Shown in pieces: positions 1,762-6,956 of a stretch of 64,000 bases of DNA. The stretch lies in contig NZ_CP028092.1 in assembly GCF_005491705.1 (NCBI RefSeq), forward strand, positions 4,898,001 through 4,962,000. The letters are read 5' to 3'. The number at the start of each line of letters is the position of its first letter. Positions within the stretch are counted from its first letter, which is position 1. This DNA is from Pontibacter sp. SGAir0037. GTDB taxonomy: Bacteria > Bacteroidota > Bacteroidia > Cytophagales > Hymenobacteraceae. Made by a program: the position numbers and the translations under genes. The notes under the pieces were generated by a model that saw only the letters and a program-made list of their open reading frames with translations, did no database searches and was not told the DNA's origin.

Positions 1762-2814
1762 TCAACCAAAAATTTCGTCTGCTACTTCAATTCGCTTTAA
1801 GATTCTTGATTTACTTGCAGAAGCCGAACCTGAGGCTTTCTTAAAGGATTGTGACTCCTTTAATTGATTTACTTTAGCAATTAACTCATCAGTTCGGAGA
1901 TCTTTATACTTTTGGTAATATTTGGTTATGCCAATAGAAACGCAATCATACAAACTTGTTGAGAACACATTGTTTGAACCCCTAAACACATCCCTTCCTA
2001 CTGGGTGTAGTAAGTTTATCATGTTTTCAAAGGAATTTTTCAAGTGGAAAATTCTCTCGTCATCTGAAACTGCCTTTTTCATATAATTTGTCATGTGCTG
2101 GGAAATGTTTTCAGACAACTCGTCCTGCCCATCTGTAAGTGAACAAAAACGTAAAACTAATTCATCCATGTAAAGCTGTTCTAACTGTCTTTCTGTAGGT
2201 TGAATTAATTGAACAAATTTGTCATTTTTAGCACAGTCTCTCAGGAAAATATTGAACTCTTTTGAAACGCCCCTAAAAATTGCATTTCTTATTTCTTGAT
2301 CTGTTAGTTCTGAGCCACCTGTATTCAATCGATTAAATAATTCGTAGCGCATATCAAATGCACTATTCCACTTAATAATTTCTATTCTACAAGTGGCTCT
2401 TTTGATATTTAATTGAAATTTTAATGGAAGATCTTTACATGCAAGGTGTTCCAATTCTTCAGTCAAATCACCTTTACACATGACCCAATTATTTTTGTCT
2501 TTTGTGTCCTTGAGAACCCCAAAGAATGAGAACACGGTCGAAATTCTTTGAAGACCATCAACAAGCTCCCATCTGCCATCTTCGTCTTCTGCAACAAAAA
2601 TTGGAGGAACTGGAATCCCAATTAAAATAGACTCAATAAACCTTGTTTTTTGATAAGTGTCCCACCTGAATAATCTTTGAAAGTCTGGGTCAATAATGAT
2701 TTCTGCTCGTTCATACATGCTCATTATTTCTCCAAAAGACATATCTAGTCTGTCAGTATTTAAACTATTTCTTGTTTTTTCTAGTCTTTTCTCAAGTTTT
2801 TCTATTTTATTCAT
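1762..2814 (-). CDS. DUF262 (GmrS/ParB-fold) domain protein
   Basis: The protein is 350 aa from the ATG at 2814; an in-frame TTG at 2829 is also possible. After a short charged N-terminus it has the DUF262 core: DPDFQR (about 42-47), then FIESILIGIPVPP and DGLQRISTV (about 86-94), which matches the DGQQR nucleotide-binding signature of the family. The later FNRLNTGG segment is also typical. DUF262 forms the NTPase half of GmrSD-type restriction enzymes that act on modified DNA. Here the HNH-like DUF1524 half is missing and an HEPN gene follows instead, so the effector is probably the HEPN RNase. Base composition is AT-rich, unlike the core genes right of the tRNA. Confidence 0.85.
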   Translation of the reverse strand: MNKIEKLEKRLEKTRNSLNTDRLDMSFGEIMSMYERAEIIIDPDFQRLFRWDTYQKTRFIESILIGIPVPPIFVAEDEDGRWELVDGLQRISTVFSFFGVLKDTKDKNNWVMCKGDLTEELEHLACKDLPLKFQLNIKRATCRIEIIKWNSAFDMRYELFNRLNTGGSELTDQEIRNAIFRGVSKEFNIFLRDCAKNDKFVQLIQPTERQLEQLYMDELVLRFCSLTDGQDELSENISQHMTNYMKKAVSDDERIFHLKNSFENMINLLHPVGRDVFRGSNNVFSTSLYDCVSIGITKYYQKYKDLRTDELIAKVNQLKESQSFKKASGSASASKSRILKRIEVADEIFG

Positions 2815-2840
2815 AATATTAGATATCAAATTTGCATGTG

Positions 2841-2970
2841 GCCCAACGAACTTAGCTATGTGTAGGGCGAAGGGTTAGCCAGTTAACTTTCCGCTTAGTG
2901 ATTTGTTTATTCGTTGTAACTACGTTCATATTAGCATTTTATCTCGCATTACGTATAGCCATTAATGGCG
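2841..2970 (-). repeat. attC-like imperfect inverted repeat between gene blocks
   Basis: This spacer separates the PD-(D/E)xK gene from DUF262. One end is GCCCAACGAACTTAGCTATG (2841-2860) and the other is CGCATTACGTATAGCCATTA (2945-2964). The inner segments AGCTATGTGTAG and the reverse complement of TACGTATAGCC can pair, giving an imperfect inverted repeat about 130 bp long with a GCCCAAC/GTTGGGC core at one side. This is the general layout of integron attC sites. The second core is degenerate (GCCATTA), so this is a resemblance, not a proof. Confidence 0.4.
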
Positions 2971-2978
2971 ACTGGCTT

Positions 2979-3515
2979 TTATTCAATCGTTCTGTTTATT
3001 GTCAGACGCATTATTTTCCTTTGTAGTAACTGAACCAAATCATCAGTAGTTTGAAAGGCTAAAATGTCTTCTCTTTTTATAATTAATATTCTAATATTAT
3101 CTCTCGTCAAAGCATTAATTATTTCACTATGTGCATTACTAACTCCATCAGCTGCACCTGTAATACCACTCAATGAAATTAAGATTCCAGTTGTTGCAAA
3201 TCTATCTTGTAACTTTCTTATAAACCAACCTACTTGAGCACTACTTACAGGAGATGCTGTATTCTTACATTCTGTTATTATAGCATAGTCCAAAAAATAT
3301 AAATCTGAATTTCTAGTATCATTATTAAAAATAACATCTAATTCGTGAGCTCTAACGCCATCAAGAACATTTGAGTCATAATGAGTTACTTTTGGCACTT
3401 TACAAAAAATGTAGCGAACTAATTCTTCAAGTTTAGCTCCTTTTACAGCGGTGTTTGGAGCGGTGTCTGACTCTCTTAATAATCGAGATATTTTTGGTTG
3501 AGAATATCTTGCCAT
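2979..3515 (-). CDS. PD-(D/E)xK nuclease-like protein
   Basis: The protein is 178 aa. It has the ordered signature of PD-(D/E)xK nucleases of the Mrr/resolvase kind: an early helix acid (E30/E31), D60 in HELDVIF, ECK at 82-84 in AIITECKN, and Q94 in the following helix. The start codon shares one base with the stop of the upstream TIR-like gene (TAATG), so the two are translationally coupled. Such small nucleases cleave DNA in restriction, repair or transposition. No specificity domain is visible, so targeting, if any, would come from the partner. It could also be a repair or resolvase-type enzyme, but the neighbourhood favours defence. Confidence 0.72.
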   Translation of the reverse strand: MARYSQPKISRLLRESDTAPNTAVKGAKLEELVRYIFCKVPKVTHYDSNVLDGVRAHELDVIFNNDTRNSDLYFLDYAIITECKNTASPVSSAQVGWFIRKLQDRFATTGILISLSGITGAADGVSNAHSEIINALTRDNIRILIIKREDILAFQTTDDLVQLLQRKIMRLTINRTIE

Positions 3516-4450
3516 TATTCAAGTCCGTGTGCTATTTTATTTCTTTGATTTAAAAGTAAGGCCTCAAATGAATTTTTTATTAATTCATTTACAAAGTCCT
3601 CTAAATCATAGCTTATTATTAAGGGGGCTAGTGAAGATTTTATTTTGGGTCTATTGTTATCTCTATCAATGTAGAGTAGAAGTCCAACTTTCGCATCTGA
3701 AATATTTATGTATCTTTTAATTTGATTTTCCGCATTTTCTAATCTACTTCTATCTAATCTGCCATATTTCAATTCTACTATTATTGGATTTCCTAGAACC
3801 TTCCCTAGGTTATCACTCCACAAAGCAAAGTCAATACCTTTGTCTTTATTTGTATTATTTTCGACATAATTAAGATTAATTATATCGAAAATTTTAGCCG
3901 TAATTTGTTCCATCCTAAACGCATTCCGAGCTGCATTTTGGTTATTGTTAATATCAAAGTTTCTTAAATCATTTATCTCTGGAAGAATTTGTTTTAACTG
4001 ACTTTTAATTTTATTTGAATATTCGGTTACTTTATCAAATCTGTCATTCTTTCTATGATATGATTGTTTCGGTTTCTTCTTTACATCTGAAAGTAACTTA
4101 ACAATAGAGTTACTGGTAAATTCCGAGTCGTTCAAGTCTGTTCTTATGAACAACTTGTTTTCTAAGTAAAATGGAATTTTTAAATTCTTATCTAATAAAA
4201 TGAAATGTTGTTTCCCTAAACCTTCACAGACACCCATTTCATAAATAACATTTGGATTGGTATCTGTAACAATAAAAATGGCAAAATCTGATTCTTTTAT
4301 TTTCTTCTTTAAAATTTGTTGAATAGAATCTCCAATTGAAAAATCGTATAGGTCAAAAGACTCAATACCATTCTCAGCAAGAATATTCTTAACTGAAGTT
4401 GTGTCAACATTGTGTGACGCGGATATGAAACATTTTAAATTTCTGTTCAT
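3515..4450 (-). CDS. TIR-like domain fused to a PD-(D/E)xK nuclease domain
   Basis: The protein is 311 aa and AT-rich. Residues 5-125 resemble the TIR/nucleoside deoxyribosyltransferase-like fold: a CFISAS first strand, SDFAIFIVTD, then NPNVIYEMG with a candidate catalytic glutamate E71. Residues 170-290 carry a nuclease signature: E181, D207 in GIDFALW, E226-L-K228 in VELKYG, and Q243. The last residues are RNKIAHGLE, the same heptad that forms the HEPN motif of the gene at 1131. TIR-like domains in defence proteins bind or consume nucleotides. Here the fusion suggests sensing at the N-terminus coupled to DNA cleavage, with the downstream nuclease as partner. This is inference; the pair is not one I can name. 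Confidence 0.65.
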   Translation of the reverse strand: MNRNLKCFISASHNVDTTSVKNILAENGIESFDLYDFSIGDSIQQILKKKIKESDFAIFIVTDTNPNVIYEMGVCEGLGKQHFILLDKNLKIPFYLENKLFIRTDLNDSEFTSNSIVKLLSDVKKKPKQSYHRKNDRFDKVTEYSNKIKSQLKQILPEINDLRNFDINNNQNAARNAFRMEQITAKIFDIINLNYVENNTNKDKGIDFALWSDNLGKVLGNPIIVELKYGRLDRSRLENAENQIKRYINISDAKVGLLLYIDRDNNRPKIKSSLAPLIISYDLEDFVNELIKNSFEALLLNQRNKIAHGLE

Positions 4451-4494
4451 TTATTTATATCAGCTTGCTGCCAACTATTGGATGTAAGGAGTTA

Positions 4495-4531
4495 TTCTGT
4501 TTATCCTCTCATAGAGGGAGGATAAACAGAA
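4495..4531. repeat. Perfect 14-bp inverted repeat in the divergent promoter region
   Basis: The arms 4495-4508 (TTCTGTTTATCCTC) and 4518-4531 are exact reverse complements around a 9-base loop. The repeat lies between the divergently transcribed TIR-like gene (minus) and the Xre antitoxin gene (plus). Beside it, 4469-4475 reads TGCCAAC, a possible attC-type core. It could be an operator, the hairpin of a recombination site, or a terminator; no T-run adjoins it. Confidence 0.6.
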
Positions 4532-4687
4532 CTGTATTAACGAATATACTATATACATTCATTAATATTTACTACAAGACTTTTGTTTCTTAATTCATTA
4601 GCAAAATAGCGTTTGATATTTCTATTATAAAATAAACGATTTTAAACTATATTGCGTTCATATGACTGTATTTAAACATTCAAATTG

Positions 4688-5128
4688 ATGCTTATGTCAC
4701 TTGATTCGATAGTAGAAGTAATGGGCGGCCCCAAAAACATTGGGCGCGACATTCATAATACACATGATTTTATACTGGCCTCACGGGAAGGTATTTCCGT
4801 GGCTGTTATCAAGGTTCTCCAGAGCAGAATAGGTTTGACGAACAAAATGATGAGCAGTATTCTGGAGATCTCTGAGAGCACTCTACAGCGTCTTATTAAG
4901 CAAAAAAGCCGGCTAGGAAAGTCTGAGTCTGAGGCCGCCTACGAGATATCTAAAATCATTGCGAAAGGCATTGAAGTGTTTGGAGACGAACAGGACTTCA
5001 CAGAGTGGCTTAACACTAAGAATATCGCCTTGGGAGATGAAAGGCCAATCGACTGGTTGGACTCATCTATCGGCAGGGAGCAGTTGGTGGATTTATTGGT
5101 GGGTATTCAATACGGTCATTACTCCTAA
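4688..5128 (+). CDS. Xre/MbcA/ParS-type antitoxin (DUF2384)
   Basis: The protein is 146 aa from the ATG at 4688; TTG 4685 and ATG 4694 are alternatives. An N-terminal helix-turn-helix-like segment (LTNKMMSSILEISESTLQRL) is followed by the DUF2384 toxin-binding region with FGDEQDFTEWL and ALGDERPIDWL. The stop is 2 bp before the RES-domain gene, the standard order for Xre-RES pairs. Antitoxins of this family neutralise the RES toxin by binding its active site and repress their own promoter; the inverted repeat at 4495-4531 is a possible operator, though it is about 160 bp upstream. Base composition is closer to the core than to the AT-rich block on its left. Confidence 0.88.
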   Translation: MLMSLDSIVEVMGGPKNIGRDIHNTHDFILASREGISVAVIKVLQSRIGLTNKMMSSILEISESTLQRLIKQKSRLGKSESEAAYEISKIIAKGIEVFGDEQDFTEWLNTKNIALGDERPIDWLDSSIGREQLVDLLVGIQYGHYS

Positions 5129-5130
5129 GC

Positions 5131-5580
5131 ATGATTGTATATCGTTTAGCCAATCGGGACTTTATCGTGGACTTGGCTGGGACTGGAGGATTGTTCGGTT
5201 CGGGCAGGTGGCATGACAAAGGGATGCGAATATTATATACATCAGAAAGCTTCTCCTTGGCCAAACTAGAAGTGCTGGCCAATACAAAGTCCATTCCTAG
5301 GAATTATGCCCTAATCAAAATTGAGATTCCGGACGACCTGGAGCACAAGAGACTCACAGTAGAAGATCTTCCGGCTAACTGGAATATCTTTCCCCATCCG
5401 AAAGAGTTGAAGGTTTTTACAGAGGAGTGGATTAGGGAGAATAAGTATCTGGTCATGCAAGTGCCGTCTGTACATTCCCCTTATGAGAGTAATTACCTGA
5501 TCAACCCGATGCACCCGGATGCGGGGCGAATAAAGATAATAGAAAACAGGCCGCACGACTTTGATGCCCGCCTTAAGTAA
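5131..5580 (+). CDS. RES-domain toxin (NAD-degrading type)
   Basis: The protein is 149 aa. It shows the residues that name the RES family in order: R26 in GSGRWHDKG, Y36, E47 in SLAKLEV, and S113 in QVPSVHSP, followed by NYLINPMHPD. RES toxins deplete NAD+ (hydrolysis or phosphorolysis in characterised members) and cause growth arrest. All key residues are present and the length is normal, so the toxin looks functional. It follows its antitoxin by 2 bp and is surely co-transcribed. Such pairs occur in chromosomes and mobile elements; here the pair sits between a nuclease cluster and a RadC gene. Confidence 0.92.
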   Translation: MIVYRLANRDFIVDLAGTGGLFGSGRWHDKGMRILYTSESFSLAKLEVLANTKSIPRNYALIKIEIPDDLEHKRLTVEDLPANWNIFPHPKELKVFTEEWIRENKYLVMQVPSVHSPYESNYLINPMHPDAGRIKIIENRPHDFDARLK

Positions 5581-5712
5581 GGGAGTGGCAAAGGGAAAGA
5601 TACCTTAGCAAGGTCGTGTTCTTCCTAAGATTGGCGACACCTACTTTACATAATCTTACTTATTGGCTAGGACGAAAAAAAATGTTTATCTTATTCATTA
5701 ATGGTAATGAAT

Positions 5713-5735
5713 AAAAAAGGGCTACAAGAGCCCTT
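5713..5735 (-). terminator. Intrinsic terminator of radC
   Basis: On the minus strand AAGGGCT (5735-5729) pairs with AGCCCTT (5723-5717), followed by a T-run (A5713-5718 on plus). The hairpin overlaps the radC stop codon. Confidence 0.65.
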
Positions 5736-6192
5736 CATCTGCCATAGAGTAGTATGTCTCACTGGTGAGGATAATGTGATCCAGGACGACGATGTCGAGC
5801 AATTCTCCACCCTGCTTCATTTTCTTTGTCAGCTGTAGGTCTGCCGCACTTGGTTTGGTATTACCGGAGGGGTGGTTGTGGCAAAGGATGATGGAGGAGG
5901 CGCAGGCTTTGAGTGCCGCCGCGAAGATAAGCTTAGGATCAGCTATGGTGCCTGCGATACCTCCGGTGGAAAGTTCATAAATGCCCAGCACCCGATTGGC
6001 CCTGTTGAGTAGCATCACCTTGAACTGTTCTACAAATTCGATTTTGCCGGTGTCCCAGTTTTGACGGAGAACCTCTGCGCTGTCGGTGGAACTGGTCACC
6101 TGTGGGCGCTCGGACGGTTTTACTTTGGAGCGGTAGGTCAGTTTGATTTCTGCTACTTTGTTCATTCCGGTTTTTTTAGTTGGCTTTTCCAT
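5722..6192 (-). CDS. radC: RadC-like JAB/MPN domain protein
   Basis: The protein is 156 aa, shorter than chromosomal RadC (about 225 aa) because the N-terminal helix-hairpin-helix part is absent. The JAMM metal site is complete: E55, H105-N-H107-P-S-G, S115 and D118. Short RadC proteins of this type are frequent cargo of Bacteroidota conjugative elements and genomic islands. The biochemical role is unsettled; the JAMM fold suggests a metal-dependent hydrolase or nuclease. Its place on the island side of the tRNA-Arg gene, with a long G+C-richer leader upstream (6193-6400), fits a mobile-element origin. Confidence 0.88.
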   Translation of the reverse strand: MEKPTKKTGMNKVAEIKLTYRSKVKPSERPQVTSSTDSAEVLRQNWDTGKIEFVEQFKVMLLNRANRVLGIYELSTGGIAGTIADPKLIFAAALKACASSIILCHNHPSGNTKPSAADLQLTKKMKQGGELLDIVVLDHIILTSETYYSMADEGLL

Positions 6193-6835
6193 AATCTTGT
6201 TCTTTTAAGGTTTTAGGAATTGATTATGGTGCCTGCCCTGCCTGGCGAACGGACTAAGGGCAGGGTGGAGCCGAAGAAAATGCGGAGGGCTCCCTTTAGG
6301 GATACCCATTTTGTTCGGACTACCTTGTCCCGTGTCCGGGCGGCAGGCTAAATTGCGCCGGAATGAATGACCTCGGACTTTTATATTGGAGTGTCTTGAG
6401 GGGTGGTGTTTTTAGCTTCTTTTTAAACTATTTTGCTTCAGTCTAAAGATGGAGGAGGATACAGTCATCTTAAAACGAGTGAGTAAGAATAGAGTAGGAG
6501 CAAGGTTATTTGATGGCCTTAACTATTTTATCATTGATTTTTTAACTATAAAGACATTAAGAAAGTCTGTCCAGTTGCTAAAGCAAGAAACTTGACGTGT
6601 AGAGGCTTGTGAAAAAATGGGCTGGAAGGGTAAAAAAGCTCTCAGAGTATACACTTAGGAGGCTGTAGCGGGGAGCTCAAAGCTTTACTGAAAATTAATT
6701 GAAATAATAATAAGTCTAGCAATGTGGTTCGGAAGAAGGAAAGATGAAAAAAAGTTAAGTAGCTATGGAGAGAATTATTTGCAAGTAAGAAGTCGGCTGA
6801 ATAGCAAAAAGTTTGTGTGCAAATTGTGTGTACAT
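6193..6835. other. Non-coding stretch upstream of radC
   Basis: About 640 bp without a credible gene. 6225-6400 is G+C-richer and contains the inverted pair TGCCTGCCCTGCC / GGGCAGG. This resembles leaders before mobile-element genes in Bacteroidota, but I cannot assign a function. A frame running through 6642-6977 on the minus strand only translates the tRNA. Confidence 0.4.
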
Positions 6836-6872: not shown

Positions 6873-6882
6873 GATTTTCAAG

Positions 6883-6956
6883 TGGTCACGTAGGGAGTCG
6901 AACCCCAAACCTTCTGATTCGTAGTCAGATGCTCTATCCAATTGAGCTACGAGACC
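6883..6956 (-). tRNA. tRNA-Arg (anticodon ACG)
   Basis: The cloverleaf is complete: acceptor GGTCTCG/CGTGACC, D arm GCTC..GAGC, anticodon stem TCTGA/TCAGA with loop CTACGAA (anticodon ACG), and T arm with TTCGACT. CCA is not encoded. Acceptor position 5-68 is a T-T mismatch; an A at position 68 would restore pairing. The 3' end faces the accessory region, the side where tRNA-targeting integrases insert. Confidence 0.97.

Follow-up and report, generated by a model that had tools for sequence, protein, structure and literature searches.

We propose that two adjacent genes in a 64,000-nucleotide stretch of the Pontibacter sp. SGAir0037 genome (the window; contig NZ_CP028092.1, positions 4,898,001 to 4,962,000) encode a heterodimeric PD-(D/E)xK nuclease in which a domain of the NDT/DNPH1/TIR type binds a ligand signalling infection and so licenses DNA cutting, a reading that in our judgement has about an even chance of being right. 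The pair is probably an anti-phage defence, and its parts are known modules in a new arrangement, a defence-type nuclease system. Heterodimer formation, the ligand and its chemistry, the sequence of events and the role in defence are all inferred. A sequence-only reading of this DNA had concluded that the pair matches no system it could name. This agrees with our searches: no system listed in PADLOC-DB 2.0.0 gave a confident joint match to both genes, which had partial nuclease or TIR matches only (gene 1 a weak match to PycTIR, gene 2 a weak match to PDC-S02), and a literature search covering mostly titles and the starts of abstracts, without subscription papers and most preprints, found no description of the pair. 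Should the proposal hold, the two genes form a conserved defence module that this database lacks, and in it a heterodimeric DNA nuclease is directly linked to nucleotide-glycosidase (NDT/DNPH1/TIR) chemistry. With only two proteins, such a system would be a simple one in which to ask which small molecule tells bacteria that they are infected, and it would add a new mode of control for restriction-type nucleases, which are themselves used as tools.

The gene pair and its domains

Both open reading frames lie where the sequence-only reading had placed them, and the start of gene 2 does overlap the stop of gene 1, by a single base (Table 1). Conservation is given for aligned sets of 22 gene-1 and 23 gene-2 proteins; the gene-1 alignment is without loci L044, L055, L060 and L061, the gene-2 alignment is without L055, L060 and L061, and L062 stands outside both. 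AlphaFold2 models built from 19 and 21 sequences had a mean pLDDT of 83.2 (gene 1) and 91.9 (gene 2); the folding alignment A6 was without L031, L032 and L052, and A7 without L031 and L032. Both genes are under purifying selection, which is stronger on gene 2 (pN/pS of 0.09-0.26, vs 0.25-0.45 for gene 1, in seven pairs).

Table 1. Positions in the window of the two genes, their domains and motifs, and the element repeat.
Feature	Position	Strand	Description or basis
Gene 1	3515..4450	minus	311 aa, ATG start; putative large subunit, with an NDT/DNPH1/TIR-like and a PD-(D/E)xK nuclease domain
Gene 2	2979..3515	minus	178 aa, ATG start; putative small subunit, an Mrr-type PD-(D/E)xK nuclease
TAATG, in which the gene 1 stop (TAA) and the gene 2 start (ATG) share one base	3513..3517	minus	
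Flavodoxin-like domain of gene 1 (residues 1-125), NDT/DNPH1/TIR type	4076..4450	minus	Fold match, profile match, conservation
Gene 1 residues 168-311, predicted PD-(D/E)xK domain, homologous to gene 2	3518..3949	minus	hhalign, residues
Gene 1 C-terminal RNxxxHG motif (R303-G309)	3524..3544	minus	R, N, H and G all in 17 of 22
48-bp exact direct repeat, 3' part of tRNA-Arg	6880..6927		Right end of the integrative element

Gene 2 had been read as a small nuclease, and both profile and fold bear this out. The protein passes the Pfam Mrr_cat cut-off (24.4 vs 21 bits), and the same family is matched by all 23 aligned gene-2 proteins (E≤0.01). Its model best matches the R.BspD6I small subunit (Z 12.4, 146 residues aligned, 2.8 Å), with the catalytic domain of Nt.BspD6I (Z 11.8) and FokI (Z 10.7) close by; Can2, Card1 and NucC (Z 8-9) and the modification-dependent enzymes MspJI and AspBHI (Z 7-8) match more weakly. 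The catalytic residues E30, D60, E82 and K84 are invariant (23/23). Of the residues that had been singled out from the letters alone, D60, E82 and K84 are confirmed, the conserved Glu is E30 instead of E31, and Q94 is dropped, as Q occupies that place in only two of the 23 proteins.

The nuclease signature reported for gene 1 (E181, D207, E226 and K228) is present in full. D207 and E226 are kept in all 22 aligned proteins, E181 in 20 and K228 in 19; Arg replaces the Lys in L031, L032 and L042, implying that the gene 1 site may be inactive in some members and that a heterodimer with two active sites is not universal. The domain aligns along its full length with the gene 2 profile (hhalign probability 98.2, E 4e-13) and has a weak profile match to 2eo0 (E 0.04). 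From the motifs, the hhalign result and the 2eo0 match, we assign the C-terminal domain to the PD-(D/E)xK nucleases by its sequence, and by the hhalign result the two nuclease domains are homologous to each other. The earlier description of a sensor with two nucleases keeps both of its nuclease domains; they look, however, less like two independent nucleases than like subunits of one heterodimeric enzyme. Homologous nuclease domains on coupled genes, with likeness to both R.BspD6I subunits, make a heterodimer the simplest reading.

At the C-terminus of gene 1, directly before the coupled gene 2, we found an RNxxxHG motif that the earlier reading does not mention. It is complete in 17 of the 22 proteins, across phyla; it is absent or changed in a clade of four (L051, L056, L058 and L059), and L049 has Ala for the Asn. 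We considered a HEPN reading of the motif and rejected it, as no HEPN Pfam family matched gene 1 or the 22-member alignment (E≤0.01).

The N-terminal domain was compared with structures in VIA-align, whose rows for gene 1 span residues 3-127 only. Its model comes closest to DNPH1 (Z 14.9, 2.3 Å, 117 residues aligned) and, tied with it, the TIR domain of SfSTING (Z 14.7, rmsd 1.9 Å over 120 residues); further matches include MilB (Z 13.8), the SPARTA TIR domain (13.6) and AbTir (13.0). The model combines a TIR/flavodoxin-like fold with a catalytic-type Glu (E71, in NPNVIYEMG). A TIR/deoxyribosyltransferase-like domain around this residue was what the sequence-only reading had claimed, and structure prediction, which it had named as able to refute it, returned a TIR/NDT-like fold here and a nuclease fold for gene 2. 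Among profiles of PDB sequences the nearest are the nucleoside 2-deoxyribosyltransferases (NDT 2a0k, E 2e-7); then come DNPH1/Rcl and, at weaker scores, CAP12, PycTIR and MilB. The Pfam scores of gene 1 stay below the cut-offs, narrowly for CAP12-PCTIR_TIR (23.2 vs 24.7 bits) and by more for TIR_2 (19.7 vs 28), TIR (18.5 vs 21.3) and Nuc_deoxyrib_tr (15 vs 28.8), with PDDEXK_3 and Mrr_cat weaker still; Nuc_deoxyrib_tr is matched by 18 of the 22 gene-1 relatives (E≤0.01). The domain resembles TIR no more closely than it does the nucleoside 2-deoxyribosyltransferases and DNPH1. Because the NDT and TIR fold matches are equal (Z within 1), the fold does not reveal the ligand.

The conserved residues listed for this domain are S10, D55, E71, G73 and K80, of which S10, D55 and K80 are each kept in 20 of 22 proteins. 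The place of E71 holds Glu in 20 and Asp in two, L049 and L052, and the pair on the viral contig L062 (961-2427) has Gln there, indicating that catalysis by this Glu is not universal; L062 is a natural variant that bears on the need for the residue. Six residues before the Glu, NDT has its active-site Asp and DNPH1 a Ser. The window protein has neither, carrying Asn at this place, and the family varies (D 9, N 5, S 4, A 2, R 1, P 1; n=22).

Inheritance and genomic setting of the pair

A further test set in advance for the sequence-only reading was whether the two genes occur together elsewhere, and they do: besides cellular genomes, plasmids of two lineages and a pair of viral contigs hold both. 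Scanning the genome collection with a four-row gene 2 alignment, gene 1 not being used, returned 22 loci, and 18 of them have a complete gene 1 immediately upstream. One further locus has a partial gene 1 (L044, the nuclease half, cut by the contig end) and three have none (L055, where gene 2 is broken, L060 and L061). By their record titles, several of them MAGs, the loci span Bacteroidota, Bacillota, Pseudomonadota, Actinomycetota, Methylomirabilota and Planctomycetota. A tblastn search of plasmids with gene 1 found two Agrobacterium records (97% covered, 24% identity) with a gene 2 match adjoining; a Sphingomonas plasmid also carries the pair, its first gene being annotated as nucleoside 2-deoxyribosyltransferase. 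The viral contigs are L034 and L062. In all 21 aligned loci besides the window, a gene 2 start codon falls between -14 and +3 bases from the gene 1 stop, the commonest arrangement being the one-base overlap. Pairwise distances of the two genes are correlated (r 0.92; none of 5000 permutations as high) and the two trees have their main splits in common. The correlation speaks for co-inheritance and not for contact.

Within the phylum, the 22-row gene 1 profile matched 71 of 395 genomes (E≤1e-6). Among the matches listed for these genomes, only the window's own genome had a full-length one (1-294 of 295), and the next best covered 1-161 only, implying that many genomes hold the N-terminal module, whereas the gene with both domains is rare and patchy. 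The gene 2 profile matched five of the 395 genomes, four of them weakly, and one of 39 close relatives, the window itself. A gene-1 profile from a three-row alignment matched nothing among the viral contigs, gene 2 had no tblastn match in the phage records, and a blastn search of E. coli genomes with gene 2 gave none either, the last being a weak test at the DNA level.

Some proteins carry a gene-2-like domain in another setting. A fusion of gene 1 and gene 2 was sought among the gene-2 relatives that lack gene 1. In L060 (3358-4590) the gene-2-like domain is clear (hhalign 99.8), but the segment ahead of it fails to match the gene 1 profile (11.8). From its sequence this segment looks to be of PD-(D/E)xK type, which is suggestive only. 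In the Halorussus protein L063 (2492-4486), a gene-2-like Mrr domain ends a longer chain, seemingly with another nuclease-like segment ahead of it. L060 and L063 are possible single-chain versions of a two-nuclease design. Neither the Halorussus locus nor the Kozakia plasmid locus (L033) was accepted as the pair, as the gene-2 domain sits behind different N-terminal parts. At the latter, a protein with a terminal gene-2-like Mrr domain (2337-6413) is followed by genes for SIR2 and ATP-binding proteins, possibly another NAD-linked nuclease cassette.

In the window the pair is AT-rich (GC about 0.29-0.32, vs about 0.44 further right) and lies to the left of the 48-bp repeat in Table 1. The other copy of this repeat is 46.8 kb to the left (G000:C1:4858100-4858147), where it is adjoined by a recombinase-like ORF (L065 262-1617) whose sequence reads as a tyrosine recombinase. 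The repeated 3' part of tRNA-Arg and this ORF make it probable that an integrative element carries the pair as cargo. The same element holds a relaxase-like ORF (L065 4701-5891), and the whole, roughly 47 kb with transposases, an RHS-like ORF and defence-type cargo, is probably integrative and mobilizable. Immediately downstream of the pair is a two-gene cassette on the same strand (1131-2829), in which a GmrSD_N protein, matching NsnA of PADLOC (E 4.8e-63), overlaps a HEPN_MAE_28990 protein; the RNKIAHG motif of the latter resembles the C-terminal motif of gene 1. Other neighbours are an Xre/RES toxin-antitoxin pair and a RadC-like gene. Neither a methyltransferase (Pfam, seven window proteins) nor a CRISPR or cyclase gene was found among the window proteins scanned.

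Around the relatives, we aligned 110 neighbour ORFs (set A8; six of 116 left out). Among the 25 Pfam families listed for them, no methyltransferase family matched more than two of the 110, and we saw no further gene recurring with the pair from locus to locus. PADLOC matches (E≤1e-8) lie near the pair in 10 of 17 loci, a count drawn from 20 hand-chosen neighbour ORFs without a matched control. They include Gabija GajAB (L050), pAgo-associated genes (L054 and L058) and a type IIG enzyme; the matches at L044, L053, L056 and L047 are weaker evidence, and some, such as a dGTPase and a helicase, could be housekeeping. One neighbour ORF among the relatives matched HamB. At the Agrobacterium locus a DEAD/DEAH helicase gene adjoins a DUF1837 gene, and we read the two as Hachiman.

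Proposed mechanism and its rivals

Gene 1 would be the large and gene 2 the small subunit of one heterodimeric endonuclease, each supplying one catalytic domain and kept in step by the tight translational coupling. The NDT/DNPH1/TIR-type domain would replace the DNA-recognition domain of heterodimeric restriction enzymes, and its presence in that place suggests control by, or production of, a nucleotide-type ligand. We suppose that the domain binds, and in most members cleaves, such a ligand when it signals infection, the candidates being a phage-altered deoxynucleotide, NAD+ or an NAD+-derived signal. This event would license the nuclease pair to cut DNA, which would block the phage or kill the infected cell. 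A wider claim, which we put forward more tentatively, is that the pair represents an undescribed immune system, widely spread by transfer, whose heterodimeric PD-(D/E)xK nuclease is gated by an NDT/DNPH1-like nucleotide N-glycosidase domain and not by a DNA-recognition or cyclic-oligonucleotide (CARF/SAVED) domain; infection would be sensed as an altered free nucleotide or an NAD+-derived molecule, and both subunits would be needed to cut.

The main rival turns the roles around, with the NDT/TIR domain as the killing enzyme that depletes NAD+ or dNTPs, as TIR effectors and Retron-Eco1 do, and the nuclease pair as its trigger or a second weapon. It owes this place to Retron-Eco1, which has an NDT-like effector and acts by NAD+ hydrolysis (PMC12405507), and is further favoured by the DUF4062 TIR-like NADases (PMC13174449). 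The fold matches to the SfSTING, SPARTA and AbTir TIR domains and the Glu kept in most gene-1 proteins are also consistent with an NADase. However, this Glu is lost in 3 of the 23 members seen, to Asp or Gln, yet the gene 2 catalytic site never is, which leans towards the nuclease as the essential activity, and the pair travels without a constant third gene. On balance we find an NADase weapon rather unlikely. We think it improbable, too, that the N-glycosidase domain strips a modified base from phage DNA, or from its nucleotide precursor, for the nuclease pair to cut there in a base-excision-like form of restriction. Two of the near structures hydrolyse modified nucleotides (DNPH1 5-hydroxymethyl-dUMP, MilB hydroxymethyl-CMP), and MspJI and AspBHI, among the weaker gene 2 matches, depend on DNA modification; but DNPH1, MilB and NDT have free nucleotides or nucleosides, not DNA, as their substrates, and six positions ahead of the Glu the window protein has Asn, with variation across the family. 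Defence by a DNA glycosylase is known (PMC11078745).

The strong likeness to R.BspD6I and FokI would also suit site-specific restriction of a type II-like kind, or a stray nuclease pair, in either case unconnected with nucleotide signals. Against this reading speak the lack of a methyltransferase among the seven window proteins scanned and of a recurrent one among the families listed for the neighbours, and an N-terminal domain that is conserved and resembles nucleotide enzymes; we consider it very improbable. To a role outside defence, as a nucleotide-pool or DNA-repair enzyme or as a toxin-antitoxin pair, we give hardly any weight. DNPH1 and NDT, of the same superfamily, do act in nucleotide salvage and sanitation, and the Xre/RES toxin-antitoxin pair adjoins the two genes; against this stand the patchy occurrence of the full-length gene 1 among the matches listed for the phylum, the presence of the pair on a mobile element, plasmids and viral contigs, and the fact that both proteins look enzymatic and neither antitoxin-like. 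We retain the ligand-licensed heterodimeric nuclease as the best explanation.

Relation to known systems

Card1, Can2 and NucC are nucleotide-activated PD-(D/E)xK nucleases, to which gene 2 has its weaker fold matches. Card1 and Can2 hold a nucleotide-binding Rossmann-like domain and the nuclease on one chain, and each of the three is encoded by a single gene and forms homo-oligomers. Their sensor is a CARF domain or a cyclic-nucleotide pocket, where the pair has an NDT/TIR-like domain.

CAP12 (TIR-STING) and PycTIR are the best Pfam and PADLOC near-matches of gene 1, and the SfSTING TIR domain is among its closest folds. Unlike them, gene 1 scores below the Pfam cut-off, has no STING or Pycsar sensor domain and no adjoining cyclase; where they have a sensor, the pair has a nuclease domain and a second nuclease gene. 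The Mrr-type part of the PADLOC candidate PDC-S02 matches 13 of the 23 gene-2 proteins and the gene 1 nuclease domain of L045, and the window's own two proteins do not match it at E≤0.01. We rejected PDC-S02 as the same system, since its nuclease region alone matches.

NDT-like domains are found in anti-phage systems, in the effector of type II retrons and in AbiJ-NTD1/NDT fusions, as described in PMC12405507 and PMC3710099; the latter, the nearest text that our literature search turned up, reports separate fusions of AbiJ-NTD domains with Mrr nucleases and with deoxyribosyltransferases. The pair differs from these in having neither a reverse transcriptase nor the AbiJ N-terminal domain, and in that gene 1 joins its NDT-like domain to one nuclease while the coupled gene encodes a second.

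The closest layout is that of R.BspD6I/Nt.BspD6I (PDB 2p14 and 2ewf), in which two homologous catalytic domains likewise sit on separate adjacent genes. The large subunit has a C-terminal nuclease domain, as gene 1 has, and a small single-domain nuclease subunit is encoded downstream of it, as gene 2 is; in R.BspD6I the small subunit is active only together with a large subunit that is itself catalytically competent (PMC6261011). Sequence identity is about 12%, and the pair, unlike the R.BspD6I type, has no conserved methyltransferase partner. Where the large subunit of R.BspD6I carries DNA recognition, gene 1 carries its NDT/TIR-like domain.
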